The translations under genes and the position numbers were made by a program. Below, in pieces: positions 36,641 through 60,943 of a stretch of DNA of 64,000 bases. Positions within the stretch are counted from its first letter, which is position 1, and each line of letters starts with the position of its first letter. The notes beneath the pieces were generated by a model. The model saw nothing but the letters and a program-made list of their open reading frames with translations. It searched no databases and was not told where the DNA came from. The DNA is from Croceicoccus pelagius. GTDB lineage: Bacteria; Pseudomonadota; Alphaproteobacteria; Sphingomonadales; Sphingomonadaceae. The DNA lies in NCBI RefSeq assembly GCF_001661915.1, contig NZ_LYWY01000039.1, positions 434,001-498,000 on the forward strand. Reading direction: 5' to 3'.

Positions 36641-38428
36641 ATGAATAGAGTGAAGACCGGGCGCGCGATAGCGGCAATGGCGCTGGCAGGCACCGCGATG
36701 ATGCCCGCGATCGCCATGGCGCAGGCGTCCGACGTGGCCTTGCCGACGCGTGAGGAGATCGAACGCGGCGTGGTGCAGGGCGCGATCGGCGACCTCGATA
36801 ACTCCGCTCTCGATGCGGGCGACGTCGAACGCGCGCCGTGCCCGCTGGCCGCGCCCGAGTTTGCCGACATTTCCTTCACGCTCAGCAATGTCGTCTTCAC
36901 CGGCCTCGAACCTTTCCCCGAAGGTGTCGACCTGTCGGGTGCTTGGGTTGGCATGGCGGGGCAGACGATGCCGGTCGCCGCGGTGTGCGAAATCCGCGAC
37001 CGCGCCGCGACGATGCTGCGCAGCATGGGCTATCTTGCCGCGGTGCAGGTGCCGCCGCAAAGGATCGAGGACGGCACGCTGCGGCTGGACGTTCTGGCAG
37101 CGCGGATCACGCGGCTTCAGATCAAGGGCGACGCAGGGCCGAACGAGGGTATCCTGCTGCGCTATCTCTCGCCGCTCACCGAACAGTCGGTGTTCAACAC
37201 GGCAGAGGCGGAGCGCACGTTGCTGCTCACCCGCGACCTGCCCGGCGTCGATGCGCGGCTTGCGCTGCGCCCCATCGACGGGAAGCCCGGCGAGCTTGTC
37301 GGTGAAGTCTCGGTCCGCCGCATTCCGTGGAGCGCCGATGCGCTCGTCCAGAATTTCGGCAGCAGCGCGACGGGTCCGTGGTCGATCCTTGGCCGCGTCC
37401 GCTTTGCGGGCCAGACGGGCATGGGCGACGCGACCACGCTGTCCCTCGTCACCTCGTCCGATTTCGACGAACAGATCGTATTCCAGATCGGGCACGAAAT
37501 GCGCCTTGGTCGCGATGGTCTGCGCCTTGCCGGTGATTTCACTTATGCCGAAACGCGGCCCACCGTCGGCGGACAGAACCCGTTCAGTTCCGAAACCGTG
37601 GCGGGGACGATCCGCGCCGACTATCCCCTGATCCGCAGCCGTACGCGCAACCTGTTCCTTGGCGGCGGGCTCGACATCGTCGACCAGGAAGTGATGTTCG
37701 GCAGCGCGACGCTGACTGAGGACAAGCTGCGGGTCGCGTGGCTGCGCGCCGATTACGCGACGATCGACGGCATGAGCGCAAGCGGACGCGGCGGCTATTC
37801 CGCGCTCGAACCGCACTTTGGCGTGTCCGGCGGCGTTGAGGTTCGACAGGGTCTCAACATCTTCGGGGCGAGCACCGATTGCTCGAAGAACTTCGACAAG
37901 TGTCTTGGCGCTGGCGAGGAGTTTACCAGCCGCCTCGACGGCGATCCCACCGCCTTCGTGCTGCGCGCTGACGCCAACGTTACCTATCGGCCCGATCCGC
38001 GCTTCACGATCGCGTTCCAGCCGCGCGCGCAGTGGGCGCCGAATGCCCTGCTGTCCTACGAGGAATTTTCGGGCGGCAATTACACCATCGGGCGCGGCTA
38101 TGATCCGGGCGCGGTTCTGGGCGACTCTGCGCTCGGGTTCCGGTCAGAGCTGCGTTACGGCTCGGCATGGCCCGAGGTCGCAGGGGGCCACGCGGTGCAG
38201 CCTTACGCCTTCTTCGACGCGGGATGGTTCTGGAACCACGATGCCGGCTTCGACGAATTGGGCGCCGAAAAGCTCTTTTCCGCAGGCGCGGGTGCACGCG
38301 CCAATTTCATGGACCGGTTCCGGCTCGACGCGGCGCTTGCCGTGCCGCTGCGCGATACGCGGTTCGACGACGGCGCGAAGGGCGACTGGCGCGCGCTTCT
38401 CAGCCTTTCCGTGCTGCTGGCGCAGTGA
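36641..38428 (+). CDS. TpsB outer-membrane transporter (ShlB/FhaC/HecB family)
   Basis: A 595-residue Omp85-superfamily protein that exports its TpsA partner. It shows a signal peptide (about 1-28), a POTRA-type region at about 55-150 (FADISFTLSNVVFTGLEPF), a further periplasmic domain and a C-terminal barrel. The loop-6 signature appears as IGRGYDPG with R485-G486-Y487, and the C terminus ends LSVLLAQ rather than in Phe. GGGAGG precedes the ATG at 36641. It lies 11 bases upstream of the tpsA-like gene, which is its obvious substrate. Confidence 0.9.
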   Translation: MNRVKTGRAIAAMALAGTAMMPAIAMAQASDVALPTREEIERGVVQGAIGDLDNSALDAGDVERAPCPLAAPEFADISFTLSNVVFTGLEPFPEGVDLSGAWVGMAGQTMPVAAVCEIRDRAATMLRSMGYLAAVQVPPQRIEDGTLRLDVLAARITRLQIKGDAGPNEGILLRYLSPLTEQSVFNTAEAERTLLLTRDLPGVDARLALRPIDGKPGELVGEVSVRRIPWSADALVQNFGSSATGPWSILGRVRFAGQTGMGDATTLSLVTSSDFDEQIVFQIGHEMRLGRDGLRLAGDFTYAETRPTVGGQNPFSSETVAGTIRADYPLIRSRTRNLFLGGGLDIVDQEVMFGSATLTEDKLRVAWLRADYATIDGMSASGRGGYSALEPHFGVSGGVEVRQGLNIFGASTDCSKNFDKCLGAGEEFTSRLDGDPTAFVLRADANVTYRPDPRFTIAFQPRAQWAPNALLSYEEFSGGNYTIGRGYDPGAVLGDSALGFRSELRYGSAWPEVAGGHAVQPYAFFDAGWFWNHDAGFDELGAEKLFSAGAGARANFMDRFRLDAALAVPLRDTRFDDGAKGDWRALLSLSVLLAQ

Positions 38429-38439
38429 GGGGCGGGGAT

Positions 38440-44400: not shown

Positions 44401-45270
44401 GTGGGCGATGTCTCGCTCGTCGCGGGCAGCGGCGCGGTTGGCAGCGGCGGCACGATGGCGCTGATGGCGGCGGGCAATGTCACCGTTACCGGCGGACTGC
44501 TGCTCGACAATGCGGGCGGCGCGATGCTGATGATCGACAGCGGGGGCGATCTCTACGTGAACTCGGCAGGCGGTTCGATCCGCGTGCGTTCGGGCGGAGC
44601 ACAGGCGGGTAGCCTGATGCTAGCTGCAAATACCATCGTGGCGGGCAGCGCGCAGACGCTCTCCGATATCGCGACGGTTGACTTCCCCGACCTCACCGAC
44701 GCGCTGGGGGTGGTCGATGGTGGCGACGGGCGCAGCCTGATCGAAGGCGGCTCGGTCGTGATCGACGCGGGCGGGTTCTATGTCGCCAATACCGGTGCCG
44801 ACACGTCGTTCAACGCACGGCGCGGGTTCGTGGCCGATACGATGACGGTGACCAATTCGGGCGGCACGATGCCCTTCGTGGTCATCAACGGCGTCGTCGC
44901 GGGCGAAGTCGGGCTGGATACCGCGTTCGGCATTGCCTTCCCGCTGTCGGCGGTGCCCTATTCCTCGGTCAATGGCTGCTACATCGGCTTTGGCGGGCTG
45001 TGCGGCCCGACCATCGATACAGAGCTGGTGAAGCAGATCATCAACGAGGAACCGCCGCACTCCATCCTCGACGGAGAGCCGCGTTCAACGATTGAGACGC
45101 GGATCATCACCATCGAGAAGACCAACTCCGAAGGGTTCGAGCCGCTGATCGACGAACCGATCACCGGCACGGGCAACGACGACCTTTGGGAAGACGGTGC
45201 GCTCGACGGAAAGCAGTGTCCCGTCGATGTCCGGCAGGACGAGTGCGAGGAAGAAGACGGCAACCAGTGA
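38440..45270 (+). CDS. TpsA exoprotein, filamentous haemagglutinin type
   Basis: A 2276-residue protein. An extended signal peptide (about 50 residues, ending SPADAQ) is followed by the TPS secretion domain (about 51-270) with the diagnostic NPNGF at residues 148-152. The rest is Gly/Ala/Ser/Thr/Asp-rich with regular short hydrophobic strands, as expected of a right-handed beta-helix. Two Gly-rich stretches occur in the middle (about 600-1110), and a 77-residue repeat occurs later (see the separate entry). Cysteines are few; two pairs near the end (CYIGFGGLC and CPVDVRQDEC) stand out. GGGGCGGGG precedes the ATG at 38440. It is predicted to be a surface or secreted adhesin; no toxin module is recognised at its C terminus. 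Confidence 0.88.
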   Translation: MGRNSRMRNMGTLAMTNTVRTTRKATRFGQLMLGTSVAAVALAAISPADAQVNANGVGQFGTDSIVNNGVTTTVTITPTETEALVDWTATDADVFLDEASTLSFESTGPQFTVLNRITPVGGTTNPLAIDGVVSATWANGQGNVWFYNPNGFVVGALATFDVNGLVLSASPIQLAGDGTLPDLGTPITFGQAPNPNASVTFSPRVDSDIDLIFPQSYLAVVAPRIQQSGSVNVNGSVAYVAAEAATMTISAGLFDITVDVGTTDANGIVHDGATFGPAGNAADPNHNQYYLAVPKNQAMTMLLSGLMGYAPAVVAGEVDGAIVLSAGYDVAGGLPDIATGSGSSSIAIDGLTTTSAVFGLASDTITISDALGANTFLEDTLLAGYSAVDVNLAQSTAVLGSQSLLAQGDLTLVAGFDDSTSGIATFDVAGGAEALAFGNLSVFGRGSVDVGVDTGGLIAAFQDFTLASIVTGAGPATAGDVSLIVNDGFVNATNINLQSIAYSDTSATGGNVTMATTGPTAAIETINIATVWSMGLGADGNPDGAFGTGGTAQVLVQDGQMLFGSDTVEAVTLDIRADGGAGARTDAAGAIGGSQGGSALLSVSGGDLLADGIAVFARGLSYTLDGALQPLGGRSTGDGFDAIGGSATVSVTGGTIGSFNFPEGAALDISATGYGSSAFGSASAGGTGGAGQGGIAQYFQSGGVAQVATMGVNASGMGGAGSNQNAEGVEPVGDGGDGIGGAALVQIDGGTLNMFGGIGIRAEGNPRSPDPVLGTQAGQGGSAQGNTAGTGGTGTGGSAAMIVNGGNVLGQIANGFPAPFGVIVSATGYGGAGGGNDPFFFTAFGGSGGDGFGGDALYEFAGGFNEASFIDIEAAGIGGSAGPDDSGGSSGQFAGSNGGSGFGGTATMNILADLDATAIGLGGQSYTVAVDGLGADGGSSDTGNAGTGGNGTAGQLAVIADGAAFTFDGLFLYAYGDGGWGGDASGTSANGGAAGFGIGGDMRIAAINGGALNSLSPFYIAAGGYGGSGGSAVDGTGGAGSLGVGGTVTVDALDGAITHGILGLYAEGYAGEGGFGPAFGADGDATAGSVFINADGTGSITGGSLEAYADGVLVESIIAGGTIALTDTTSGTVQFDSLFFANGYNAGLAEGGITVTSTLNPIVVVGPAQFYTSGDLVFRAGNGGGFRADTLDAFATGAIRFLCLTATCTEEVSSTTALSLNAASGVFADGLSFGSGGATSVVVTGGDLVLTGSARAFGGPLDILVSGSLLGTGSVSSTGDLGLTVGGDVDIGAMTVGGQLVQSGAIGAPVPTPYTTPGAFNVGMLVLGTQGDITAGTTIALGDVQTGGNDLALTAPGAITIATASDISALTLNGGSIGFGALVINGAVGMTSAGDVTGGTISAEDNVSITAGGALFADGIVATGSVILDANSIAGLGSVDALADISATSVLDIAFTTLGAGGAVTLTSTGGDVTGGSVAAGGNVAIDAAGNLSATLIDSGASVFLTANAITGLGPVTAVGDIDALTSAGLTFTALDAGGLVSLASTGGDVTGGSVAAGGNVAIDAAGNLSATSIDSGASVFLTANAITGLGPVTTVGDIDALTSAGLTFTALDAGGVVSLVSTGGDVTGGTVVAGGDVVFDAMGVLTAGVVTSGGAVSATAGSVAGLGPVTAAGDVSVLTTGSQAVGPVTSGGVVNLVSDTGDIVLSGIVTSASDLNVIAGGDISGGSLVSGGSLYLSANAVLGVDALSAPLDISVFTQAGQSYSSIAAGQGVVLFSNSGAISVADLAVGGLVSLYGTDVDVASAGALAVTDATAFDGNVAITTAGDLAVSFAQASGDVVLTSTGASVMVGDLFAGVAPSSPTGQTGQAVVIPNVGAGNIALNAATDVNVLGTALAAELFGIDAGNLASIDGTASGRLIYIETADLAVGALALIGSGTGTDDISIVATGNAGLGSGIASPGFLLDNAELSRFASAGGFSLTTGGTLAVGDVSLVAGSGAVGSGGTMALMAAGNVTVTGGLLLDNAGGAMLMIDSGGDLYVNSAGGSIRVRSGGAQAGSLMLAANTIVAGSAQTLSDIATVDFPDLTDALGVVDGGDGRSLIEGGSVVIDAGGFYVANTGADTSFNARRGFVADTMTVTNSGGTMPFVVINGVVAGEVGLDTAFGIAFPLSAVPYSSVNGCYIGFGGLCGPTIDTELVKQIINEEPPHSILDGEPRSTIETRIITIEKTNSEGFEPLIDEPITGTGNDDLWEDGALDGKQCPVDVRQDECEEEDGNQ
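42841..43350 (+). repeat. 231-bp tandem repeat within tpsA
   Basis: Two near-identical 231-base units (77 codons) lie at 42841-43071 and 43072-43302, and a third, decaying copy begins at 43303. Each starts with codons for STGGDVTGGS and includes VFLTANAITGLGPV. The period is a multiple of three, so copy number can change without breaking the frame. Confidence 0.9.
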
Positions 45271-47940: not shown

Positions 47941-49596
47941 GTGGGCGACAAGCAGAAAGCATCGGATCTTTTCATCGAGTGCCTCGAGAACGAGGGCGTC
48001 GAATACATCTTCGGCGTGCCGGGCGAGGAGAACCTCGATTTCCTCGATTCGCTGTCCCGGTCGAAACAGATAAAGCTGGTGCTGACGCGGCACGAACAGG
48101 GCGCAGGCTTCATGGCCGCGACTTATGGCCGCCATACCGGCAAGACCGGCGTGTGCCTTGCAACGCTTGGCCCCGGTGCGACGAACTTCGTGACGGCGGC
48201 GGCCTATGCCCAGCTTGGCGGGATGCCTATGATGATGATCACCGGGCAAAAACCGATCAAGAAATCGAAGCAGGGCCGGTTCCAGATCCTAGACGTGGTG
48301 GCGATGATGGGGCCGATCACGAAATACGCGCACCAATTGGCCAGCAGCGACAACATCCCCAGCCGCGTGCGCGAGGCGTTCCGTCTGGCCGAGGAGGAAA
48401 AGCCCGGTGCGGTCCACCTCGAACTGCCCGAGGATATTGCTGACGAACATACCGACAGCCGCCCGATCAAACCCAGCGTCGCCCGCCGCCCGAGTGCAGA
48501 GCCTAAGGCCGTGCGCCTTGCCGTCGCCGCGCTGGAAAAGGCCAAGGCGCCGGTTCTGGTCATCGGTGCAGGCGCCAACCGCAAGATGACCGGGCGAATG
48601 CTGCGCCAGTTCGTCGAAAAGACCGGAATCCCGTTCCTCACGACGCAACTCGGCAAGGGCGTGATCGATGAACGCCACCCGCTGTTCCTGGGCTGTGCTG
48701 CGCTGTCGTCGGGAGACTTCGTGCACCGCGCGGTCGAGGATTCGGACTGCATCATCAATGTCGGCCACGACGTGATCGAGAAGCCGCCCTTCTTCATGAA
48801 GAACGACGGTGTCACGGTCATCCACGTTTCCACCAAGACTGCAGAAGTGGATCCTGTCTATTTCCCGCAGATCGAGGTGATCGGCGATATCGCCAATGCC
48901 GTCTGGCAGATGAAGGAAGACATCGTGCCCTCGGGCGCGTGGAATTTCGATCACATGCTGGCCTATCGCAAGGCAGAGGTCGAACACACCAAACCGCTGG
49001 CTGACGACACCCGATTCCCTATCTTTCCGCCGCATCTGGTGAGCCAAGTTCGCGCATCGATGCCGCAGGACGGGATCATCTGTCTGGACAACGGGGTCTA
49101 CAAGATCTGGTTCGCGCGCGGGTACACCGCCTATCTGCCGAACACCGTCCTGCTCGACAATGCGCTCGCCACGATGGGGGCGGGGCTTCCCAGCGCGATG
49201 ATGAGCGCGATGCTCTATCCGACCCGCAAGGTCATGGCGATCTGCGGCGACGGCGGGTTCATGATGAACAGCCAGGAGATGGAGACCGCTGTGCGGTTAG
49301 GGCTCAATCTCACGGTTCTGATCCTGCGCGACGATTCCTACGGCATGATCCGCTGGAAACAGGCGAACATGGGTTTCGAGGACTGGGGTCTGACGTATGG
49401 CAACCCCGATTTCGTGGCCTATGCCGAAAGCTACGGCGCGAAGGGTCACCGTGTCGAAAGCTCCGACCATTTGAAGGAAGTGCTGGCCCACTGCCGAGAC
49501 ACGCCGGGTGTGCACCTGATCGATTGCCCGGTCGATTATAACGAGAACGACCAGATCCTGAACAACGAGATCAAGGAACTCAGCGCGAAGCTGTGA
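47941..49596 (+). CDS. Acetolactate-synthase-like ThDP enzyme
   Basis: A 551-residue thiamine diphosphate enzyme in the usual three-domain order. The N-terminal pyrimidine domain holds the catalytic Glu, E52 in RHEQGAGF; the central domain carries DVVAMMGPITKYA upstream and VLVIGAGANRK; the C-terminal pyrophosphate domain has the GDGGFMMNSQEMETAV metal motif and DDSYGMIRW. It looks closest to AlsS or catabolic large subunits, and no regulatory small subunit follows, so a biosynthetic IlvB role is less likely. The GTG start has AAGGGGGGAC upstream. The next gene is an aldehyde dehydrogenase 25 bases away, which may use its product (inference). Confidence 0.82.
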   Translation: MGDKQKASDLFIECLENEGVEYIFGVPGEENLDFLDSLSRSKQIKLVLTRHEQGAGFMAATYGRHTGKTGVCLATLGPGATNFVTAAAYAQLGGMPMMMITGQKPIKKSKQGRFQILDVVAMMGPITKYAHQLASSDNIPSRVREAFRLAEEEKPGAVHLELPEDIADEHTDSRPIKPSVARRPSAEPKAVRLAVAALEKAKAPVLVIGAGANRKMTGRMLRQFVEKTGIPFLTTQLGKGVIDERHPLFLGCAALSSGDFVHRAVEDSDCIINVGHDVIEKPPFFMKNDGVTVIHVSTKTAEVDPVYFPQIEVIGDIANAVWQMKEDIVPSGAWNFDHMLAYRKAEVEHTKPLADDTRFPIFPPHLVSQVRASMPQDGIICLDNGVYKIWFARGYTAYLPNTVLLDNALATMGAGLPSAMMSAMLYPTRKVMAICGDGGFMMNSQEMETAVRLGLNLTVLILRDDSYGMIRWKQANMGFEDWGLTYGNPDFVAYAESYGAKGHRVESSDHLKEVLAHCRDTPGVHLIDCPVDYNENDQILNNEIKELSAKL

Positions 49597-49621
49597 TTTC
49601 GTTCGGGATTGGAGGACCCAA

Positions 49622-51058
49622 GTGACCAAGCTCAAAGACACATATCCGCTTTATCTGAACAACAAGGCAGTGCAGCCCAACACCGACCTTGCCGTGACCG
49701 ACAAGTTCACCGGCGAGGTCGCTTTCCGCACCGCGCTGGCGACGCCCGACATCATCGACGAGGCGATCGCGGGCGCGACGCGCGCGGCCCCTGCCATGGC
49801 GAAGCTTGCCAGTTACGAGCGGCAGGGCGTTCTCGACCACTGCGTCGCGCGGTTTCGTGAACGGTTCGACGAACTGGCCTATGCCCTTTGCGTGGAGGCG
49901 GGAAAGCCGATCAAGGATGCAGAAGGCGAAGTCACGCGCTTGATCGACACGTTCCGCATCGCGAGCGAGGAGGCGACCCGCAATTATGGCGAAGTCCAGC
50001 CGCTGGACATTTCGGCCCGGGCAAAAGGCTATATGGGCATCTGGAAGCGCGTTCCCATCGGGCCGTGCAGCTTCATCAGCCCGTTCAACTTTCCGCTCAA
50101 CCTTGCCGCGCACAAGATCGCACCGGCCATCGCCATGGGTTGTCCCTTCGTGATGAAGCCGGCCAGCATGACCCCGCTGGGCGCGATCATCATGGGCGAG
50201 ATTCTGGCCGAATGCGACGTCCTGCCCGAAGGCGCGTTCTCGATCCTTCCGGCCAGCCGCGACGGCGCGGACCTGTTCACGACGGACGATCGGCTGAAGC
50301 TCTTATCCTTCACCGGCAGCCCCGACGTGGGTTGGGCGTTAAAGGCGAAGAGCGGGAAGAAAAAGGTCGTGCTGGAACTGGGCGGCAATGCGGCGGTGAT
50401 CGTCGATCATGATGCCGATCTCGACCATGCGCTCGAACGGATTATCTTCGGTGCATTCTACCAGTCGGGCCAGTCGTGCATCGGCGTGCAGCGCATTGTC
50501 ATCCACGAACGCATCTATGACGAGTTCCGCGAGATGCTGGTCGCGAAAACGAAGACGCTGGTCGCGGGCGATCCCAAGGACCGCGATACCTTCATCGGTC
50601 CGATGATCTCGGAGAAAGAGGCCAAGCGCCTCGACGGCTGGGTCCAGTCGGCGGTGAAGGCGGGCGGAAAGCTGCTCGTCGGCGGCAAGCGCGATGGCGC
50701 GATGCTGGAAGCGACGCTGCTGGAAGACGTGCCCGACAATTGCGACGCGGTGCGTGAAGAAGCGTTCGGCCCGCTGGCGATCCTTTCGAAGTTTAGCGAC
50801 TGGGACAAGGCGCTGGCCGAAGTCAATGACAGCAAATTCGGGCTTCAGGCGGGGCTGTTCACCCGCGACATTCACAAGGTCCTGGACGCGTGGGACGAAC
50901 TGGACGTGGGCGGCATCGTGGTGAACGATGTGTCATCCTACCGCGTCGACAACATGCCCTATGGCGGCGTGAAGGATTCCGGCCTTGGCCGCGAAGGCAT
51001 CCGGTTCGCCATGGAAGACATGAGCGAGATCCGCAACATGGTGATCAGGCGGGCTTAA
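49622..51058 (+). CDS. NAD(P)-dependent aldehyde dehydrogenase
   Basis: A 478-residue ALDH-superfamily enzyme. The ISPFNFPLNLAAHKIAPA segment, the Glu in VLELGGNAAVIV (about residue 252) and the nucleophile Cys in QSGQSCIGVQR (about residue 287) are all present. It oxidises an aldehyde to the acid, and the substrate cannot be read. The sequence resembles the succinate-semialdehyde/glyceraldehyde-3-phosphate side of the family. The GTG at 49622 is preceded by GGAGGACC. Probably co-transcribed with the ThDP enzyme. Confidence 0.88.
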   Translation: MTKLKDTYPLYLNNKAVQPNTDLAVTDKFTGEVAFRTALATPDIIDEAIAGATRAAPAMAKLASYERQGVLDHCVARFRERFDELAYALCVEAGKPIKDAEGEVTRLIDTFRIASEEATRNYGEVQPLDISARAKGYMGIWKRVPIGPCSFISPFNFPLNLAAHKIAPAIAMGCPFVMKPASMTPLGAIIMGEILAECDVLPEGAFSILPASRDGADLFTTDDRLKLLSFTGSPDVGWALKAKSGKKKVVLELGGNAAVIVDHDADLDHALERIIFGAFYQSGQSCIGVQRIVIHERIYDEFREMLVAKTKTLVAGDPKDRDTFIGPMISEKEAKRLDGWVQSAVKAGGKLLVGGKRDGAMLEATLLEDVPDNCDAVREEAFGPLAILSKFSDWDKALAEVNDSKFGLQAGLFTRDIHKVLDAWDELDVGGIVVNDVSSYRVDNMPYGGVKDSGLGREGIRFAMEDMSEIRNMVIRRA

Positions 51059-51103: not shown

Positions 51104-51160
51104 GTTCATGGGCAGGGAAGGTGTCGCGACCTGCGCGGCACCTTGAATGGGGGAACAGGT

Positions 51161-52579
51161 GTGGGGAACACTGCTGGTCGGCTGGTGCGTATCGTGGACA
51201 GGCTCGGCCTGTCACGAACCGCGCTGCTTGGGCTTTGCGCCTGCGTCCTGATGGCCTCGGGCGCATTGGCGGCCAGTTTCCTCCTCGCGCCGCAGCCTGC
51301 CGGGGCGCAGGCCTCCGACCATTCCGACACGATGAAGCGTCACCTCGGCGTCGCGTCATGTGCAGGCTCGACCTGTCATGGCCGCTCGCTGGGCGATGGT
51401 GTTCCCGTGCGTCAGGACGAATTGCAGATGTGGCAGGAGGAATCCTCGCCCACCGGCGCGCATAGCCGTGCCTATCGCGTCCTTTTCGAACCGCGCGGCA
51501 AGGACATCATCCGCCGCCTCGGCCTCGACGATGCGGGCGTGGCGCGGGACTGTCTTGGCTGTCATGCAGAGCCTGGCGCAGCGCGTCTCGAAGATGCCGT
51601 CGGGTGCGAGGCGTGCCACGGCGCGGCGGGCAGCTGGATCGCGGGACACTATACCGTCGGCGCGACGCACGAACGCAATGTGTCGCAAGGGATGACCGAT
51701 CTGGTCGATCCGCAGACCCGCGCGGGCGTCTGCCTCGACTGTCACTTCGGCGGGACCGCCAAGGGCCAGTTCGTCCACCACCGGATAATGGGGGCAGGGC
51801 ATCCGCGCGTTTCGTTCGAGCTGGACCTGTTCTCGACGCTGCAGCAGCACTGGAACGTGGATGCCGACTATGTCGAGCGCAAGGGCCGCCCCAACGCGTT
51901 GCAGACCTGGGCGGTGGGTCAGGCAGAGGCGCTGAACCGCTCGCTTTCCCTGTTCGAAAAGCCGGGCCTTGCCACCGATGGCATGTTCCCCGAATTCTAT
52001 TTCTTCGACTGCCATTCGTGCCACCGCCCGATCTATGACGGGGCGGACGCGCGGGCGAGCAAGGTGGCCAATCCCTATCGTCCGATCCCGACCGGCTATC
52101 CGCCCTACAACGACGAGAACATGATCATGCTGGCCGCGGCCGTGCGCGTTCTCGCGCCCGATGTGGCTGGCAGCTACGACGCGCAGGTAAAGCGTTTCCA
52201 CGCCTCGATGACGCAAGGGCGCGATGCCGCCGTGGTCGAAGCCGCGCAGATGCGGGCCATGGCGAAAGACCTGTCGCGCCGGTTCGCGGGCTCTGCCTTC
52301 ACCGACAAGCAGGGCTTCGCCATGATCGAGGCTATCGCCAGCGAGGGCGTGGCCGTGCGCTACACCGATTACGAAGGCGCGGTCCAATCGGTCATGGCGA
52401 TGGACACACTGCTCTCTGGCCTTGTTGCGCAAGGTGCGGTCAGCCCGGCGCAGGCAAGCGCGCTGCGGCTCGACATCAACCGGGCCTATGCCTCGGTCAA
52501 GGAGCCGAACAGCTTCGAGCCGCTGGCTTTCCGTGCCGCGCTCTCCAGCGCCGTTCGCGCCATCCGGGGCATGCGCTGA
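51161..52579 (+). CDS. Periplasmic multihaem cytochrome c (c554-like)
   Basis: A 472-residue exported protein. A hydrophobic signal or anchor (about residues 17-45) ends PAGAQA. Haem c sites: one CX4CH (CAGSTCH, soon after the signal peptide) and four CXXCH (CLGCH, CEACH, CLDCH, CHSCH), so up to five haems, all in the first two thirds. The spacing recalls the cytochrome c554 domain. The C-terminal 150 residues are helical without haem sites. The GTG at 51161 has GGGGGAACAGG upstream, better than the TTG at 51143. Two bases separate it from the next gene. It is the likely periplasmic electron carrier of the operon. Confidence 0.85.
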   Translation: MGNTAGRLVRIVDRLGLSRTALLGLCACVLMASGALAASFLLAPQPAGAQASDHSDTMKRHLGVASCAGSTCHGRSLGDGVPVRQDELQMWQEESSPTGAHSRAYRVLFEPRGKDIIRRLGLDDAGVARDCLGCHAEPGAARLEDAVGCEACHGAAGSWIAGHYTVGATHERNVSQGMTDLVDPQTRAGVCLDCHFGGTAKGQFVHHRIMGAGHPRVSFELDLFSTLQQHWNVDADYVERKGRPNALQTWAVGQAEALNRSLSLFEKPGLATDGMFPEFYFFDCHSCHRPIYDGADARASKVANPYRPIPTGYPPYNDENMIMLAAAVRVLAPDVAGSYDAQVKRFHASMTQGRDAAVVEAAQMRAMAKDLSRRFAGSAFTDKQGFAMIEAIASEGVAVRYTDYEGAVQSVMAMDTLLSGLVAQGAVSPAQASALRLDINRAYASVKEPNSFEPLAFRAALSSAVRAIRGMR

Positions 52580-52581
52580 CG

Positions 52582-54540
52582 ATGCGGCGCATTGCGGCCC
52601 CTCTGCCGATCCTCGCGGCGTTCTCGCTGGCCCTGTCGGGCTGCGGCGGGGGCGGGGACGGCAATTCGGTGGGCGGCGTCGCGCCGACGCCGACGCCTTC
52701 GCCGGTCGGCGGCAGGCTCTATGCCGATCCGGCGCAGGAATCGCTGTCGGCCACCGACGTGCAGCAGATCATCGCGCAGGCCGTCGGCGAAGCGCAGGCA
52801 AGGGGCTTGCCCAGCACGATTGCTGTGGTCGACCGCGTCGGCAATGTGCTCGCCGTGTTCCGCATGAACGGCGCGAGGGACGACATGGTGACCAGCGCGT
52901 TCATCCCGTTTCTGAACGCGCAGAACGACACGCCGGTCGACGCACAGGGATTGACCATTCCCTCGGCCGCGGGCGCGATCGCCAAGGCCATTACCGGTGC
53001 CTACCTGTCGAGCGGCGGCAACGCGTTTTCGTCCCGCACGGCAAGCATGATCGTGCAGGAACATTTCCCGCCGGCTCCGACGACGCCGGGGCTTGAATCG
53101 GGTCCGTTGTTCGGGGTGCAGTTCTCGCAGCTGCCCTGTTCGGACCTCGTTGCGCGGGCATCGGACGGACTGATCGGGCCCAAGCGTTCGCCGCTGGGCC
53201 TTGCCGCCGATCCGGGCGGTTTTCCGCTCTACAAGAACGGTGTCGTCGTGGGCGGCGTGGGTGTTATGGGCGACGGGGACTATGGCCTCGACCCCAATGT
53301 GCTCGACGTCGATACCGATGCCGAGGAATATATCGCGCTTGCCGCGATACAGGGGTTCGCCCCGCCGGAAAACATCCTTGCCAACCGCATCACGGTCGAC
53401 GGGACGACACTGCGGTTTTCGGACGCCAGTGTCGACAAGCTTGCCGCGCTTCAGACCAATTTCGCGGCGATCAACGGCACGGCCGGCGCGCTCATCGCGA
53501 TCAACGGATATACCGACGGAACGCTGATCGCGGGCACGGCTTACGGCACCGAAAGTTCAGGCATTCGCCGCGCCAGCATGGCCGAATTCACGAACGGTGA
53601 TGCATTCGTGCTTACCGACGGGGCGGGCACAAACCGCTTCCCCGTGCGCGCGGCAACCGACGGCGCCGCCCATGCCCGGCCGCTGACGCAGGCCGAGGCA
53701 CAGGCGATCCTTGAAGAAGCATTTAAGGTCATGAGCCGCGCCCGCGCCCAGATCCGCCGCCCGCTCGACAGCCGCGCGCAAGTCTCGATCAGCCTTGTCG
53801 ACACCTACGGCGAAGTGCTGGGCGTCGTGCGCGGCCCCGATGCGCCGATCTTCGGCACCGATGTGTCGCTTCAGAAGGCGCGCACGGCGGCGTTCTTTTC
53901 AAACCCTGTCGCGGCAGAGCAGATGCTGGCCAATCCCGCCAGCGCGCCATTCGTGCAGGCGGCTCGCGATTTCCTTGGCGATCCGACGGCGCTTACCGGC
54001 ACGTTCGCCTTTGCCGACCGCAGCGGCGGCAACCTGTCGCGGCCCTATTTCCCCGATGGCGAACTGGGCCGCCCGCACGGGCCGTTCAGCCGCCCGATCG
54101 AAGATTTCAACCCGTTCGCCACGGGCCTTCAGGTCCAGCTTGTCGCGGGTAACCTCCTGCAACACGTCGGTTTCGTTCTGGGCATGAACGCCGATACGCC
54201 GCGCCAGTGCAGCGGCATTCCGGCATCGCCGACGGGGCAGGTGCGTCTTGCCAACGGTATCCAGATCTTCCCCGGTTCGGTCCCGGTCTATCGCGACGGC
54301 GTGCTCGTCGGCGGGATCGGCGTGTCGGGTGACGGCATCGACCAGGACGACATGATCAGCTTCCTCGGCACGCATAATGCGGGGCAGAAGCTGGGGACTC
54401 TCGGCAACGCGCCCAAGGACATTCGCGCCGACCGGATCGTGGTAGACCTCGGCGATGCGAGCGTCAGGTTGCGCTATATATCCTGCCCGTTTGCCCCGTT
54501 CCTCGATACCGACGAACAGAACGTCTGCGAGGGGCTGTGA
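52582..54540 (+). CDS. Lipoprotein with two GlcG/HbpS-like domains
   Basis: A 652-residue lipoprotein (lipobox LSGCG, Cys about residue 21) with two DUF336/HbpS-like modules, at about residues 55-290 and 365-610. Each begins with a helix and a strand of the type STIAVVDRVGNVLAVFRM or VSISLVDTYGEVLGVVRG, and the two align to each other. Family members such as HbpS of Streptomyces bind haem, though no haem ligand is proven here. A Pro/Thr-rich linker follows the lipobox. The gene lies between two cytochrome-related genes, so haem supply or sensing at the envelope is a reasonable inference. Confidence 0.75.
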   Translation: MRRIAAPLPILAAFSLALSGCGGGGDGNSVGGVAPTPTPSPVGGRLYADPAQESLSATDVQQIIAQAVGEAQARGLPSTIAVVDRVGNVLAVFRMNGARDDMVTSAFIPFLNAQNDTPVDAQGLTIPSAAGAIAKAITGAYLSSGGNAFSSRTASMIVQEHFPPAPTTPGLESGPLFGVQFSQLPCSDLVARASDGLIGPKRSPLGLAADPGGFPLYKNGVVVGGVGVMGDGDYGLDPNVLDVDTDAEEYIALAAIQGFAPPENILANRITVDGTTLRFSDASVDKLAALQTNFAAINGTAGALIAINGYTDGTLIAGTAYGTESSGIRRASMAEFTNGDAFVLTDGAGTNRFPVRAATDGAAHARPLTQAEAQAILEEAFKVMSRARAQIRRPLDSRAQVSISLVDTYGEVLGVVRGPDAPIFGTDVSLQKARTAAFFSNPVAAEQMLANPASAPFVQAARDFLGDPTALTGTFAFADRSGGNLSRPYFPDGELGRPHGPFSRPIEDFNPFATGLQVQLVAGNLLQHVGFVLGMNADTPRQCSGIPASPTGQVRLANGIQIFPGSVPVYRDGVLVGGIGVSGDGIDQDDMISFLGTHNAGQKLGTLGNAPKDIRADRIVVDLGDASVRLRYISCPFAPFLDTDEQNVCEGL

Positions 54541-56435
54541 TGGGGCTCGGCTTCGCTCTCATCTCGCCGCTGGCTCTGATCGCGATGCAGGCAGGCGAAC
54601 CTGTCGCTGCGGGCGACCCTGTGCTGCAGGATGCAGAGGACGTTCCGATCGAGGATCGCCGCCGCCCCGGCGTGCAGAGCGAGCTTCCCGATCCGATCGT
54701 GCAGCAGAACGAAGGCGCGGTGCGCGCCCCGCCGCCCGAAGCATTCTATACCGAGTATGATGGCACCGAAGGCGACCTGACGCTCGATGTCGCGGTGCCG
54801 GATAGAGCGCGGATCACGTCGTCGCTGTGCCCCAAGGGCGGCGATACGTCGATCTACACGCTTTATCCGAACCTTGCGGCGATGTGCCATTCGAAGCTCG
54901 ATCCCTTTCATCACAACCTGCTGAAGGGCGATCACCCGCTGGGCGAAAAGCGCCCCGGGTTTCTGAAGGGCGACGACTGGTATCTGATCCTGACGGGCAT
55001 TTCGGACACGGTGGTCGAACCGCGTAGCTTCCCTATTCCGGTCGGTGTGCAGACGACGGACCGGCCCGACAGTCTCGACGTGTTCGGGCGCAGCGACAGT
55101 CTCGTGCTCGCACAGACGTTTATCGCGGGCGTCTCGCTGCTGAAGGGCATGACCGCGTTCAAGCCGCCGACGGTCGAATACCGCGTCACGGTGGCGGGCC
55201 AGTACAACTACGTCGACGTTCCCGAACGCCGCGTGCTGGAGGTCGAGCCGAGCGAGGACAGTGAGCGGCACGACTTCTTCATCGGCCTGCAGGAAGCTTT
55301 CGTCGACTACCACATCGGCCGCTTCGATTCGAAGCGCTACGACTTCTTCTCGGTCCGCGCGGGGATTCAGCCGTGGCAGTCGGATTTCCGCGGTTTCCTG
55401 TTTCAGGACAACCAGTTGGGCATCCGCTTCTTCGGCAACCGCGACAATAACCGCTGGCAGTTCAACGCCGCCGCGTTCTGGCGCGTCGAAAAGGACACGA
55501 ATTCGGGTCTTAACGACATCACGCAAAGCCCGCGCGACGATTATGTCTTCACCGCGAACGTCTACCGGCAGGATTTCCCCGTCGTCGGCATGACGAGCCA
55601 GCTTTCGCTGACCTACAACATGAACCGCGAGGCGGGCGATATCGAGGTCGACAAGAACGGCTTTCCGGTGCGTCCCGCGCTGCTCGGCAATCTTCGCGGG
55701 CGGGACTACGACGTCGTCTATATCGGTCACGCCATGGACGGGCACTTCGGCCGCGTGAACGTGACGACGCAGCTTTACGGTGCGTTCGGCGAGGATCGGG
55801 ACGACATCTTCACCGACGATGCTTCTAAGATCGAGGCGTTCTTCGCCGCGGCAGAGGCGAGCTATGACGTCGACTGGCTGCGCTTCCGCCTGTCGGGCCT
55901 CTATGCCAGCGGGGACAGCGATCCCTATGACGGGAAGGAAACCGGCTTCGACGCGATCTTCGAGAACCCCGTCTTTGCAGGGGCCGATACGTCGTACTGG
56001 ATCCGGCAGACTATCCCGTTCGCAGGCGGCGGGCGCGCTGTGGCAGTCAACGGGCGCAACGGTATCCTGAACTCGCTGCGGTCCAGCAAGGAGCAGGGGC
56101 AGTCGAACTTCAACAATCCGGGGACGGTGCTGCTGGGCGCAGGGGTCGATGCCGACCTTACGCCCGACATCCGCGTCTCGGCCAACTGGAACCACTTGTG
56201 GTTCGACAGCACCGAAATCGTGCAGGTCCTGCGCTCCGAAGGTTCGATCCCCAAGGCGATCGGCCATGACGTGTCGGTGGCGGGCATCTGGCGACCGTGG
56301 GCGAACCAGAACGCGGTGATCCGCCTGTCGGGCGCGGTGTTCGATCCTTCCGACGGTTTCGGCGACCTTTTCGTGGCGCGGGGCCGCGATGACAGGTTCT
56401 ACTCGGTCCTCGCCAACGCGACGTTTGCTTTCTGA
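54540..56435 (+). CDS. Outer-membrane beta-barrel protein of the cytochrome operon
   Basis: A 631-residue protein. The hydrophobic N terminus is a short signal peptide. About residues 20-170 form a periplasmic or plug region with two Cys; from about 200 onward amphipathic strands alternate (for example RWQFNAAAFWRVEKD, YVFTANVYRQDF, MTSQLSLTYNMN, VNVTTQLYGAF), and the protein ends VLANATFAF, with the terminal Phe typical of barrel proteins recognised by BamA. No CXXCH. I know no family name. The ATG overlaps the lipoprotein stop (TGATG), as does its own stop with the next gene. It is a candidate for the porin sheath of an electron conduit. Confidence 0.8.
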   Translation: MGLGFALISPLALIAMQAGEPVAAGDPVLQDAEDVPIEDRRRPGVQSELPDPIVQQNEGAVRAPPPEAFYTEYDGTEGDLTLDVAVPDRARITSSLCPKGGDTSIYTLYPNLAAMCHSKLDPFHHNLLKGDHPLGEKRPGFLKGDDWYLILTGISDTVVEPRSFPIPVGVQTTDRPDSLDVFGRSDSLVLAQTFIAGVSLLKGMTAFKPPTVEYRVTVAGQYNYVDVPERRVLEVEPSEDSERHDFFIGLQEAFVDYHIGRFDSKRYDFFSVRAGIQPWQSDFRGFLFQDNQLGIRFFGNRDNNRWQFNAAAFWRVEKDTNSGLNDITQSPRDDYVFTANVYRQDFPVVGMTSQLSLTYNMNREAGDIEVDKNGFPVRPALLGNLRGRDYDVVYIGHAMDGHFGRVNVTTQLYGAFGEDRDDIFTDDASKIEAFFAAAEASYDVDWLRFRLSGLYASGDSDPYDGKETGFDAIFENPVFAGADTSYWIRQTIPFAGGGRAVAVNGRNGILNSLRSSKEQGQSNFNNPGTVLLGAGVDADLTPDIRVSANWNHLWFDSTEIVQVLRSEGSIPKAIGHDVSVAGIWRPWANQNAVIRLSGAVFDPSDGFGDLFVARGRDDRFYSVLANATFAF

Positions 56436-59400
56436 TGGACGCAATCATGCACACCAGCCGCCCCAAGTGGCATCTGGGCAGGCTCATCCTGCTCCTCGCG
56501 GCAATCCTCTTGCCCGCCGCGCTGATGGCCGCTGGCGGAGAGACGCCGCAGGACGTGAAGCACATCCGCGCCGCGCCCGCGCCCAAGGGGCAGCCGGGCG
56601 ACACGCTGGCCGAGAACTGGGCCTACGTCGATCAGCAGAACACGGGCTGCGTTTCGTGCCACACGGCTACCGATCACAAGACGATGCACGCCAGCCCCGC
56701 CGTGGTGCTGAGCTGCACCAATTGCCACGGCGGCGATTCCACGATCCAGGCCGCGCCCGAATGGCCGCATGGCGGCATGGACTACATGGCCGCGATGAAG
56801 GCCGCGCACGTGCTGCCCAAGTATCCCGCAGGCTGGAACTGGCCGTCGAGCGCCAACCCGGAACGGTCCTACGCGCTGCTGGCCAAGGAAAGCCCTGAAT
56901 TCGTCCGCTTCGTGAACCCGTCCGATTACCGCGTCGTGCGCGATGCCTGCGGGGCCTGCCATATCGAGATCATCGAGGCGTCAGAGCGCAGCCTGATGTC
57001 GACCGGCGCGATGTTGTGGGGCGGGGCCGCCTACAACAACGGAATCGTGCCGTTCAAGAACTACATCTTCGGCGAAAGCTATACCCGCGATGGCGAACCG
57101 GCCCTGCTGAAAAGCGCCAGCCGCGAGATCGGCCCCGACGGCAAGCCGATGTGGGGCACGGTGACGGAAGAGGAAAAGGCGCGCGGCGCGCTGCCCGTGC
57201 TTTATCCGTTGCCGATGTGGACCACGGTTCCGCCCGGCGACATTTTCCGCGTGTTTGAGGACGGGGGCCGCACGATCAACCCGCAGTTCCCCGAAATCGG
57301 CCTGCCCAACCCGACCGGCCTGATCCAGCGTCTGGAAGAACCGGGACGGCCCGATCTCAAGCAGTCGAACCGCGGGCCTTCGACCGGGCTTCGCGTCGCG
57401 ATTCCGGTGCTGAACATCCACAAGACGCGCCTCAACGACCCGTTCCTCTACCAGATGGGGACGAACGATCAGCCGGGCGACTATCGCTCATCCGGCTGCG
57501 CGGCGTGCCACGTGATCTATGCGAACGATCGCGAACCGCGCCACTCCATGAACTATGCCCAGTGCGGGCGCGACGGTCAGACTGTCACGGCGGATCCGAC
57601 GATCAATTTCTTGCGCGAAGGCCGCCAACTCAAGGGCGCATACGGCACTTACGACGCGGCAGAGCACGAGGCGCACGGCAAGGTGCAAGGCTCGGTGCTC
57701 GACACGCATCACGGCGCGAAGGGTTACACGGGCAAGGAAGGCGCGAGCGAGGCCGATTGCCGCGCCGCCACGATGTCCGCGCAGCAGGTCGCTTTCGGTC
57801 CGGCAGAAGGTGTCGCACCGCATGGCACGGCCAAGGCACACGCGATGGACAAGGCGGAGGCCCATGCGGCTGCTGGCCTCGACGAAAATGGCCATATGGC
57901 AGGGGGGCAGGCGGGACCCGTCCCGTTCAACGAGCGTGAGCGCGGCCACCCGCTGGCGCATACCTTCACCCGCGCCATCCCGACCGCGCAGTGCATGAAC
58001 TGCCACATGCACCAACCGAACATCTTCCTGAACACCTACCTCGGCTACACGATGTGGGACTATGAAAGCGACGCGGCCCAGATGTGGCCGGGTCCGGAAA
58101 ACACTGCCCCGCGTCCCGAAGGGATGAGCGACGAGGACTATGCGGCGCTGTTCAAACAGCAGTACTATCCCACCGCGAAGGAAAAGCGCGAAGTGCTGGA
58201 CCGCAATCCCGAAGGCGCATCGCCATCCGGCCTGTGGCGCGATGTCGAATTCCTGCGCAACGTCTATGACCTCAACGAGACGAACGAGGATACGCAGTTC
58301 GCCGACTACCACGGCCACGGCTGGAATTTCCGCGCGATCCTGAAGCGAGACCGGCGCGGCAATCTGCTCGATGCAGACGGCGACATGTCGAGCTATGGCA
58401 CCGACATTGCGCATATCGTGGACGAAAGCGACCCCGAGAAGTGGCGCAAGGCGGGCGAGGGCAAGTTCGTCCCCGCCGGCGACAATCCGGGCAAGTCGGT
58501 CCACATGATGGACATCCACGCCGAAAAGGGGATGCAGTGCGCCGACTGCCACTTCGCGCAGGACAGCCACGGTTCGGGCCTGATCTACGGGGAAGTCGCC
58601 AACGCGGTCGAGATCGGGTGCAAGGACTGCCACGGCACGGCGGATGCCTATCCGACGCTGAAGACCAGCAACCTTGCCGCGCCGCCCGAAGGGCACAACC
58701 TGGCCCTGCTTCGCAACATGGACGGCAAGCCGCGCTTCGAATGGTTCTCCGATGCCGGCGGGCGCAAGGTGCTGATCCAGCGTTCGATCATCGACCCTGA
58801 TCTGGAATGGCAGGTCAGCCTGGTGAAGGATTCGGTCGACGCGCGCTGGCAGGGCGTGACCGACGCACTGGGCAAGCCGGTCTTCAACCCGAAGGCCGCG
58901 CGCGCCAAGCTGATGGCGAAGTCGGCGTCGGAAACCGGCGAATACACATTTGGTACGGGTGTCGAGAAGGCGAACCGCGCGCATGACGATGACGACATGG
59001 CGTGCTTCACCTGCCACCTTGCCTGGACGACGAGCTGCGCAGGCTGCCACTTGCCGATTGAGGCGAACTGGAAATCCTCGATGCACAAGTACGAGGGCGA
59101 GGACACGCGCAACTACGCGACCTACAACCCGCAAGTCGCGCGCGACCAGATGTTCCAGCTGGGCCGTCACCAGACGACGAAGGCCAGCGGCGAGGAACCG
59201 GACAAGGGCATCATCGCGCCGATCCGCTCCACCTCGGCGCTGATCCTGTCGTCGACCAACATCAACCGCGAACGCATCTACGTGCAGCAGCCGCCGATCA
59301 GCGCGATCGGCTATTCCTCACAGGCTTTCGCGCCGCACTTCCCGCATACCGTCCGCAAGAACGAGACGAAGCAGTGCACCGACTGTCACGTGAGCGAGGA

Positions 59401-60943
59401 GGACGACAACAACGCGATTCTATCGCAGCTGCTCCTGCTCGGCACGAACTACGTCAATTTCGTCGGGCTGCACGCTTTCACCGGTCTCGAAGGCGGGTTC
59501 GAGGCGATCCGCGTGACCGAGTGGGACGAGCCCCAGGCCGTGATCGGGTCGTACCTGCACCGCTATGCCTATCCCGACTACTGGCGCGCCCATGTCGAGG
59601 ATAACGGCCGCGAGTTGAAAGAGTGGACCCGCGGGCCGATCGCGGACGCGAACCTGTCGGGCGAAACGAAGCAGCGCGAACTATTCCGCAACGTCGTGCA
59701 AGGAACGCCGGATGCCGTCCGGTGCCTGCAGATGCGCGGTGAATACATGTTCGTGGCGCAGGGCAAGGGCGGCTTCTCGGTCTATGACATCGCCTCTGTC
59801 GGCAACAAGGGTTTCTCGGAAAGCATCGTGACCGCGCCGTTCAGCCCGCTGGGCCACGATACGCGGGTGAAGACGAAGAACGCGACCTGCATGGCGATCC
59901 CGACGAACCAGGCGATCGCGCCCACGCGCAACACCCCCGAACTGCGCGGTGCGAACCAAGAACAGCCCTTCAGCCCGGTGTATTCCTACGCCTTTGTCAC
60001 CGATAGCGAGGAAGGCCTGATCGCGGTCAACGTCGACACGATGGCCGACGGCGAATTCCGCAACAACTTCCTGTTCCGCGCTTTCACCTTCAACCCCGAC
60101 GGCGTGCTGACGGGCGCGCGGCATATCACGCTGGCGGGCGACTATGCCTATGTCGTGACGGATCGCGCGCTGGTGACGGTCCACCTGCCCAAGCCGTGGT
60201 CGCCAAAGGCGCCCTGCGAGGTGAGCGCGAAGAAAGGCGGAGAGACCTGCCTCGATCCCAAGGTGACGAGCGTCGTGCCTCTGGACGATCCGCGCGCGAC
60301 CGCGGTGCAGTTCCGCTACCTCTGGGCGACGACGGCGAACGGGCTGGAACTGCTCGACGTGACGGACCTTTCGCAGCCTAGGCCTGTGGCGGGCGCGACC
60401 GTGCCGCTGGCCGACGCGCGCCGCGTCTATCTGGCCCGCACTTTCGCCTATGTCGCCGCGAAGTCCGAAGGTCTGGTGATCGTCGACATAACCACTCCGC
60501 GTCGCCCTGCGGTGCTGGAGAAGTTCACTGCCGGCGGCACGCTGACCGATGCGGAGGACGTGATCGTCGGCTCCACCAATGCCAGTGCCTTTGCCTATGT
60601 CGCGGACGGTGTTAACGGTATGAAAGTCCTGCAACTGACCGACTTTGAACGCACCCCCGGCGTCTATGGTTTCGCGCCGGTGCCCAAACCTACGCTGATC
60701 GCCTGGGCGAAGACGCCATCGCCTGCGCTGGCTCTCAGCAAGGGGTTGGACCGCGATCGCGGCGTGGACGAAACCGGCGGCCAGATCGCGGTGTTCGGCC
60801 GCCTCGGCAGCCGACCGTTCACGCGTGACGAGATGGAGCGATTGTTCCTCAACGCGCGCGGAGAAGTCTACCGCGTTTCGAACACGGTCGACATGGGCAA
60901 ATGGGTGGGGGCACGCACCCCCACCGCCATCGCACGGCGTTAG
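56435..60943 (+). CDS. Decahaem cytochrome c with LVIVD-like propeller
   Basis: A 1502-residue exported protein (signal helix about residues 13-32). Ten CXXCH haem sites start at Cys 72, 94, 172, 355, 520, 702, 729, 857, 868 and 981. Residues about 420-495 form a His/Ala/Gly-rich insert. From about 1090 to 1430 come repeated strands of LVIVD type (FSVYDIASVG, LLDVTDLSQPRPV, LVIVDITTPRRPAV, MKVLQLTDF), probably a beta propeller. An outer-surface location is inferred from size, signal and operon. The gene overlaps the barrel gene (TGATG). Its stop overlaps the converging hypothetical gene. Confidence 0.87.
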   Translation: MDAIMHTSRPKWHLGRLILLLAAILLPAALMAAGGETPQDVKHIRAAPAPKGQPGDTLAENWAYVDQQNTGCVSCHTATDHKTMHASPAVVLSCTNCHGGDSTIQAAPEWPHGGMDYMAAMKAAHVLPKYPAGWNWPSSANPERSYALLAKESPEFVRFVNPSDYRVVRDACGACHIEIIEASERSLMSTGAMLWGGAAYNNGIVPFKNYIFGESYTRDGEPALLKSASREIGPDGKPMWGTVTEEEKARGALPVLYPLPMWTTVPPGDIFRVFEDGGRTINPQFPEIGLPNPTGLIQRLEEPGRPDLKQSNRGPSTGLRVAIPVLNIHKTRLNDPFLYQMGTNDQPGDYRSSGCAACHVIYANDREPRHSMNYAQCGRDGQTVTADPTINFLREGRQLKGAYGTYDAAEHEAHGKVQGSVLDTHHGAKGYTGKEGASEADCRAATMSAQQVAFGPAEGVAPHGTAKAHAMDKAEAHAAAGLDENGHMAGGQAGPVPFNERERGHPLAHTFTRAIPTAQCMNCHMHQPNIFLNTYLGYTMWDYESDAAQMWPGPENTAPRPEGMSDEDYAALFKQQYYPTAKEKREVLDRNPEGASPSGLWRDVEFLRNVYDLNETNEDTQFADYHGHGWNFRAILKRDRRGNLLDADGDMSSYGTDIAHIVDESDPEKWRKAGEGKFVPAGDNPGKSVHMMDIHAEKGMQCADCHFAQDSHGSGLIYGEVANAVEIGCKDCHGTADAYPTLKTSNLAAPPEGHNLALLRNMDGKPRFEWFSDAGGRKVLIQRSIIDPDLEWQVSLVKDSVDARWQGVTDALGKPVFNPKAARAKLMAKSASETGEYTFGTGVEKANRAHDDDDMACFTCHLAWTTSCAGCHLPIEANWKSSMHKYEGEDTRNYATYNPQVARDQMFQLGRHQTTKASGEEPDKGIIAPIRSTSALILSSTNINRERIYVQQPPISAIGYSSQAFAPHFPHTVRKNETKQCTDCHVSEEDDNNAILSQLLLLGTNYVNFVGLHAFTGLEGGFEAIRVTEWDEPQAVIGSYLHRYAYPDYWRAHVEDNGRELKEWTRGPIADANLSGETKQRELFRNVVQGTPDAVRCLQMRGEYMFVAQGKGGFSVYDIASVGNKGFSESIVTAPFSPLGHDTRVKTKNATCMAIPTNQAIAPTRNTPELRGANQEQPFSPVYSYAFVTDSEEGLIAVNVDTMADGEFRNNFLFRAFTFNPDGVLTGARHITLAGDYAYVVTDRALVTVHLPKPWSPKAPCEVSAKKGGETCLDPKVTSVVPLDDPRATAVQFRYLWATTANGLELLDVTDLSQPRPVAGATVPLADARRVYLARTFAYVAAKSEGLVIVDITTPRRPAVLEKFTAGGTLTDAEDVIVGSTNASAFAYVADGVNGMKVLQLTDFERTPGVYGFAPVPKPTLIAWAKTPSPALALSKGLDRDRGVDETGGQIAVFGRLGSRPFTRDEMERLFLNARGEVYRVSNTVDMGKWVGARTPTAIARR
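60904..60925. terminator. GC-rich hairpin at the convergent gene ends
   Basis: An eight-base perfect stem, GGTGGGGG (60904-60911) with CCCCCACC (60918-60925), and a six-base loop lie inside the last codons of the decahaem gene, beside the point where it meets the minus-strand gene. No T-run, so termination is only possible. Confidence 0.35.

Follow-up and report, generated by a model that had tools for sequence, protein, structure and literature searches.

What is a cluster of multihaem cytochrome and outer-membrane barrel genes doing in a sphingomonad? The question is raised by positions 51161-60943 (+) of the window, that is, of the whole stretch of 64,000 nucleotides analysed here (positions 434,001 to 498,000 of contig NZ_LYWY01000039.1 of Croceicoccus pelagius). 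There, four co-directional and nearly touching genes encode, in this order, a pentahaem cytochrome (c5), an HbpS-like lipoprotein, a beta-barrel and a decahaem protein. An earlier examination of the letters alone (the sequence-only reading) had proposed a porin-cytochrome conduit for electron transfer across the outer membrane. The interpretation that we favour, and on which the evidence is in our judgement evenly balanced, is that this cluster forms the outer-membrane end of an envelope-crossing electron-transfer chain made of two modules. That the two modules form one functional electron chain is very probable, while that electrons reach the cell exterior falls a little short of an even balance.

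The gene set described in the sequence-only reading (a five-haem cytochrome, an HbpS-like lipoprotein, a barrel ended by Phe and a decahaem protein of 1502 residues) was confirmed by the open reading frames (ORFs), the haem motifs and Pfam. Its statement that no gap or overlap exceeds two bases holds if the barrel starts at ATG 54540 and fails if it starts at GTG 54537, the junctions being, in order, a 2-base gap, an overlap of 4 bases (1 base from the ATG) and a 1-base overlap. The barrel, c5 and the decahaem protein were each found in 21 of 98 related genomes (its own included), always the same 21, and the HbpS-like gene is present in all of these (21/21). The four-gene order was looked for in other genomes and is retained in these 21, two of them being split between contigs; the gene set also occurs beyond the family. 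Haem motifs were counted in all 21 (window and 20 related loci): c5 carries four CXXCH and one CX4CH, and the decahaem protein ten CXXCH, in every one of them.

A relative of the barrel is encoded by at least 551 stretches of GTDB genomes, with which the earlier remark that such a system would be unexpected in an aerobic-type sphingomonad does not agree. The best 80 of these stretches, hereafter the named loci, come from Novosphingobium, Sphingopyxis, Sphingobium, Sphingorhabdus, Blastomonas, Parasphingopyxis and other genera. They contain the barrel and the decahaem gene in 80/80, the HbpS-like gene in 78/80 and c5 in 73/80; of the seven loci in which c5 was missed, six are situated at the end of a contig, and the one true miss, L104, has the barrel and the decahaem gene with neither c5 nor an HbpS-like gene within 10 kb upstream. 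The motif count of c5 is kept in 72 of 73 (the exception, L127, is a frame of only 39 residues) and that of the decahaem protein in 75 of 80, three of the remaining five being cut by the contig end and two (L130 and L142) not. In an even sample of the phylum the barrel was present in 12 of 398 genomes, four of them outside the family, and in a sample of the class in 29 of 385 (26 from other families); it must be noted that the relatives and these two samples partly overlap (G000, G027 and G053 belong to all three). The system also occurs in two sampled genomes outside Alphaproteobacteria. In addition, barrel and decahaem genes were found in 13 of 72,556 plasmid records, the same 13 by both searches (12 of Sphingobium and one of Sphingopyxis). 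Gene content, gene order, haem-motif counts and co-occurrence are direct observations, and the outer unit looks like the end of a chain present in many sphingomonads and beyond their family.

At loci outside the family, the genes of the outer unit stand beside those of a flavin adenine dinucleotide (FAD) protein, a membrane-bound cytochrome b and an FHA-domain cytochrome. The same three genes are present in the C. pelagius genome on contig C30, unlinked to the window and all on the minus strand: the FAD protein, with four [4Fe-4S] sites and cyclic nucleotide (cNMP)-binding domains (C30: 320975-323566), the membrane cytochrome b (C30: 320010-320975) and the FHA-anchored decahaem cytochrome (C30: 318143-319999). 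The best NCBIfam model for the FAD protein, a YpdA-type reductase, scored below its cut-off (109.5 of 339.9 bits). Since an alignment of 12 chosen near-complete frames showed 16 invariant Cys, in four 4-Cys motifs, and no CXXC in the first 400 residues, the protein looks, from its sequence, like one that passes electrons from reduced nicotinamide adenine dinucleotide (phosphate) (NAD(P)H) to iron-sulphur sites rather than like a thiol reductase. The cytochrome b has five invariant His (17 sequences), and the FHA-cytochrome has ten CXXCH in 36/36, with one hydrophobic membrane span separating its FHA domain from the haem-binding part. The presence of FHA and cNMP-binding domains hints at regulation through phosphorylation and through cyclic nucleotides. 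Two divergent relatives (L191:6850-12656 and L193:3052-8146) have the FAD protein and the cytochrome b joined in a single frame (about 1120 residues), next to an FHA-cytochrome with nine haem motifs; these stretches contain no decahaem-barrel unit.

The association of both modules was assessed by co-occurrence and by linkage. The FHA-cytochrome was found in 20 of the 21 relatives with the barrel (the miss, G035, is a genome 67% complete) versus 1 of 77 without it, this sole match being weak and FHA-only. The cytochrome b was present in 12/12 genomes with the barrel versus 3/386 without it in the phylum sample, and in 29/29 versus 10/356 in the class sample. The corresponding Fisher p values (1e-18 for the FHA-cytochrome among relatives, 2e-20 and 2e-35 for the cytochrome b in phylum and class) carry no phylogenetic correction and overstate the certainty, because phylogeny is ignored and the samples overlap. 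The linkage pattern is the stronger argument that the modules belong together. Of the 26 barrel-bearing class-sample genomes from outside the family, 23 carry the cytochrome b gene on the barrel's own contig and strand, and three on a different contig. Thirteen stretches (L202-L213 and L221), drawn from the 23 linked genomes and not from all 26, have in every case the FAD protein, cytochrome b, FHA-cytochrome, HbpS-like protein, barrel and decahaem protein in one direction and one block. Among the named loci, the inner module lies within the 10-kb flank in 23 of 80, on the opposite strand in 22 of those. In other genomes, that of C. pelagius among them, the halves are apart yet co-inherited.

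The first protein of the cluster, c5 (51161..52579, +, 472 residues from a GTG start, an earlier TTG at 51143 being possible), has an N-terminal hydrophobic export signal and carries the Pfam domain Cytochrome_C554 (29.3 bits, cut-off 20.8); its profile match in the PDB is cytochrome c554 (E 5e-6). The CX4CH motif (51359..51379) falls in invariant columns of alignment A2, made with 18 of the 21 relatives (L049, L061 and L063 left out), and is followed by four CXXCH at 51551, 51605, 51731 and 52010. In the 13 barrel stretches from outside the family, of about 20 kb each, c5 was located in seven, with varying place and orientation, and was not found in six. Ten class-sample genomes have the cytochrome b and not this barrel; seven of them were fetched (L214-L220; G509, G650 and G699 left out), and all seven have cytochrome b and FHA-cytochrome, five the FAD protein and five c5. 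This distribution contradicts the idea of c5 as the specific partner of the barrel and lowers its candidacy as the barrel's own filling. Because c5 also accompanies the inner module where this barrel is absent, it is probably a soluble periplasmic relay and not a pore filling.

Four of the seven barrel-less stretches have an alternative outer unit on the inner module, consisting of a pentahaem c554-type protein and, after it, one of about 530 residues whose last two are Lys-Phe (L214:4293-7809, L215:3960-7461, L216:13247-16665 and L217:9443-12734). The latter belongs to no Pfam family (L214, L216 and L217 tested) and is unrelated to this barrel (probability of 0.3% in a profile comparison of one member); that it is barrel-like we infer solely from an export signal and the C-terminal residues. 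Since c5 and the inner module persist without this barrel, and in four of seven cases with another pentahaem and barrel-like pair, together they look like a unit for delivering electrons whose outer-membrane ends can be exchanged. As further observations on the genes around these cytochromes, glutamate-dehydrogenase-like genes (named by eye) lie between c5 and the HbpS-like gene in L161 (11834-13366) and next to the FHA-cytochrome in L194 (14280-15650).

The barrel gene (54537..56435, +) encodes 632 residues from the GTG, or 631 from ATG 54540, with a C-terminal Phe; the last residue is aromatic in 80/80 named loci (57 F and 23 Y). No Pfam family scored above its cut-off, the sole match up to E 1 being OMP_b-brl (12.2 of 28.7 bits), and neither Pfam nor NCBIfam gave a match to the MtrB/PioB family up to E 1. 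A genome-wide search with TIGR03509 had no match either, yet 14 control genomes were equally silent, hence it is uninformative. The AlphaFold2 model, built from 60 sequences (predicted local distance difference test, pLDDT, 67; predicted template modelling score, pTM, 0.69), gives a topology of moderate reliability, in which residues 148-631 (54978..56429) form a predicted barrel domain with 18 long strands. With Foldseek, the nearest solved fold was AlgE (E 3e-16, 13% identity, deviation 7.4 A), followed by OprD-type porins and chitoporins. The template modelling (TM) scores against AlgE (0.47 by query and 0.61 by target) and the deviation mean a common topology of the model and not a confident family. 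A highly conserved segment between strands, residues 458-529 (55908..56123), is mostly non-strand, with low model confidence over 485-521, and is a candidate plug or partner-binding loop. Alignment A1, of barrels, comprised 19 of the 21 relatives (L049 and L060 left out).

The decahaem cytochrome (56435..60943, +, 1502 residues) has an N-terminal hydrophobic export signal and no lipobox. Its ten CXXCH lie in residues 72-985 (56648..59389), and LVIVD repeats follow at the C-terminal end, the best-scoring one in residues 1327-1360 (60413..60514; Pfam, 47.9 bits, cut-off 20.2). The first lipobox scan was confined to residues 1-60 of each frame, some of the frames having been begun too far upstream, and it was repeated relative to the first haem. 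A structure model of residues 37-1085 was discarded (mean pLDDT 43, pTM 0.32). Alignment A3 held 17 of the 21 relatives (L049, L050, L058 and L062 left out); of the other alignments, A4 comprised 60 and A5 45 of 81 sequences, and A6 and A7 17 each. The HbpS-like protein (52582..54540, +, 652 residues) matches PF03928 in four stretches (90 bits, cut-off 25) and has a lipobox, LSGC, with Cys21 (52633..52644). The strict lipobox pattern is present in 17 of 21 relatives and a looser Cys-Gly pattern in all 21. The motif scan found no CXXCH in this protein.

In the chain that we propose, the cytosolic FAD protein would oxidise NAD(P)H and pass the electrons through its four [4Fe-4S] sites to the membrane cytochrome b, which would reduce the periplasmic decahaem cytochrome anchored in the inner membrane, with its FHA domain facing the cytosol. 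From there, c5 would carry the electrons across the periplasm to the terminal unit at the outer membrane, which would be made up of the decahaem-propeller protein, the HbpS-like lipoprotein and the AlgE-like barrel. The barrel may hold the decahaem protein at the outer membrane, or let its redox chain reach through, so as to reduce an acceptor there. Direction, order of the carriers, localisations and NAD(P)H as donor are what we infer; the outward direction is proposed because the flavoprotein at the inner end is of the NAD(P)H type.

Several observations weigh against this chain. None of the 21 relatives and one of the 80 named loci has a decahaem protein with a strict lipobox, so that a surface position of this protein is putative. 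The folds nearest to the barrel are those of an exporter and of substrate porins. The idealised backbone radius is about 17 A for 18 strands versus about 24 A for 26, so that a whole cytochrome is unlikely inside the barrel, where a loop or a small haem domain could fit; the modelled barrel is probably too narrow to enclose a 50-kDa cytochrome in the way that MtrB encloses MtrA. No FNR-type box was found in any of 73 regions upstream of c5, and there is therefore no sign of anaerobic control. In G353, outside the family (L160 and L194), the modules are convergent and some 8 kb apart, with no single block, and G249 has the barrel and the inner module with no decahaem match genome-wide, its contig ending just after the barrel. 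The inner-module cytochrome b occurs without this barrel in 13 sampled genomes (three of the phylum and 10 of the class, some of the matches weak), and the six barrel stretches in which c5 was not found count on the same side.

The chief alternative is that the barrel is a porin serving a periplasmic reductase: it would pass a substrate or product that is soluble and perhaps an oxyanion or a polymer, and the decahaem protein, staying in the periplasm, would reduce the substrate with electrons brought from the inner module by c5, none of which would cross the outer membrane. We consider this less likely than not, yet a serious rival. In its favour are a barrel fold nearest to AlgE and OprD-type porins and the lack of a lipobox on the decahaem protein in 21 relatives. 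A precedent exists in Geobacter: ExtI, which is porin-like, is encoded among cytochromes, its loss diminishes the reduction of selenite and tellurite, and the authors consider for it a channel function as well as one resembling a conduit (PMC5877670). The decahaem protein has a weak match to the ExtM profile (63.6 bits, below the cut-off of 800), which was not used as an assignment of homology, and the genome search with ExtM gave 46.8 bits, with control genomes silent. Against a porin with a reductase, the barrel is not assigned by sequence to any substrate-porin family in Pfam, its best-conserved region contains a long segment outside the strands, which would suit a protein-binding element better than a substrate filter, and the alternative terminal unit in four of seven stretches is again a multihaem and barrel-like pair. 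Nor is it a nutrient porin lacking any cytochrome linkage, as it stands beside cytochrome genes in the loci examined.

Inward flow, in which the outer unit would take electrons from a donor outside the cell, for instance Fe(II), Mn(II) or an organic reductant, and send them to the cytochrome b and NAD(P)+, is very unlikely: multihaem chains are reversible in principle and sphingomonads are mostly oxygen-respiring, but a flavoprotein of the NAD(P)H type makes the uphill reduction of NAD(P)+ from such donors improbable. Equally doubtful is a role in haem or iron handling or in oxidative defence, with the HbpS-like lipoprotein as the active part and the cytochromes powering reductive release of iron or haem, or the removal of extracellular peroxide. 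The 25 c-type haem motifs in three cytochromes would be a large investment for it, set against the constancy of the HbpS-like gene (21/21 relatives, 78/80 named loci), the name of its Pfam family as haem-degrading, and the TonB-receptor-like and TonB-like frames (named by eye) near the variant inner module of L193. A chance assembly of cytochrome genes is ruled out by the invariant haem counts and the synteny.

The envelope-crossing chain can be compared with the known systems that it resembles. As in MtrCAB and MtrAB/PioAB, a periplasmic multihaem cytochrome, a barrel and a large multihaem cytochrome are encoded in one operon. The barrel of MtrB has 26 strands, in contrast with the 18 modelled here; the decahaem protein has LVIVD repeats and no lipobox; and the inner partner is an NAD(P)H-type flavo-iron-sulphur protein with cytochrome b and FHA-decahaem cytochrome, not a quinol dehydrogenase such as CymA. 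Profile searches gave no assignment to MtrB/PioB, MtrA/DmsE or MtrC, the MtrA/DmsE-type model giving 17.2 bits for c5 with its five haem motifs (cut-off 192.2) and the MtrC-like PF22113 giving 18.3 bits for the decahaem protein (cut-off 30). Plain MtrCAB homology is ruled out by these profiles, and the sequence-only reading was right that the parts differ from those of known conduits. Of the conduit that it proposed, a real and conserved unit of porin plus multihaem cytochromes stands; the barrel is not MtrB-like, c5 is not its specific partner and the decahaem protein has no lipobox.

The same logic is seen in OmbB-OmaB-OmcB and ExtABCD/ExtEFG of Geobacter, among which pentahaem proteins occur (PMC6148476). 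Their outer-membrane cytochromes are lipoproteins, whereas here the lipoprotein is HbpS-like and has no CXXCH. Two of the three elements by which that source defines a conduit are present, a multihaem periplasmic cytochrome (c5, with predicted localisation) and a barrel; as to the third, a redox lipoprotein, the HbpS-like protein, a lipoprotein without CXXCH, is a possible candidate, and the decahaem protein is not a lipoprotein. ExtB, in a deletion-tested cluster, is described there as predicted with 18 strands (PMC6148476), so that strand number alone does not exclude a conduit. The cluster extHIJKLMNOPQS has a porin-like barrel, a lipoprotein that is not a cytochrome c, a pentahaem cytochrome, more multihaem proteins and a cytochrome b (PMC5877670, PMC6148476); its lipoprotein is rhodanese-like and accompanied by a Rieske protein, unlike the HbpS-like and FAD/4x[4Fe-4S] proteins here. 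With AlgE, the likeness is one of fold only, as the nearest solved structure to the modelled barrel; there is no sequence-family match, and this barrel stands beside cytochrome genes. By its profiles, the system is outside the Mtr families and outside the ext cluster, and it may work like the Mtr and ext conduits. Among the open-licence papers listed, titles and the starts of abstracts yielded no description of it.

In its widest form, our proposal is of a widespread and undescribed electron-export system of Alphaproteobacteria, independent of the quinone pool and driven by NAD(P)H, with a cNMP/FHA inner module, c5, and a decahaem protein wired through a narrow AlgE-like barrel unrelated to MtrB, the outer unit being exchangeable, by which oxygen-respiring sphingomonads would reduce something outside. 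This is put forward tentatively, with appreciably less confidence than the envelope-crossing chain itself. Sphingomonads are thought of as plain aerobic degraders. If many of them do have such a chain, in which some 25 c-type haems connect an NAD(P)H enzyme of the cytosol with the outer membrane, electron delivery at the surface would be a common trait and not a speciality of metal breathers, and the arrangement of barrel plus multihaem cytochrome would have been built more than once from unrelated parts. The gene set is defined and open to direct test by removal in culturable strains.

Regarding the surroundings of the cluster, a loose CRP-like dyad was seen in five of the 73 c5 upstream regions (on shuffling, 0.4 on average and 2 at most) and is too weak to use. 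The 9-mer GGGGTCGCA occurs in 18 of these regions (L068-L147 and the window), species kinship being uncontrolled. Just upstream of c5, on the same strand, lie an acetolactate-synthase-like and an aldehyde-dehydrogenase gene (47941-51058, named by eye), which recur in 37 and 44, respectively, of the 69 named loci having enough upstream sequence. Farther upstream there are CHASE2/cyclase-like and FecR-like genes (33657-36555, by eye), followed by a very large frame (38167-45270). In L163, FecR-like and TPR/barrel-like genes, also named by eye, lie directly 3' of c5.

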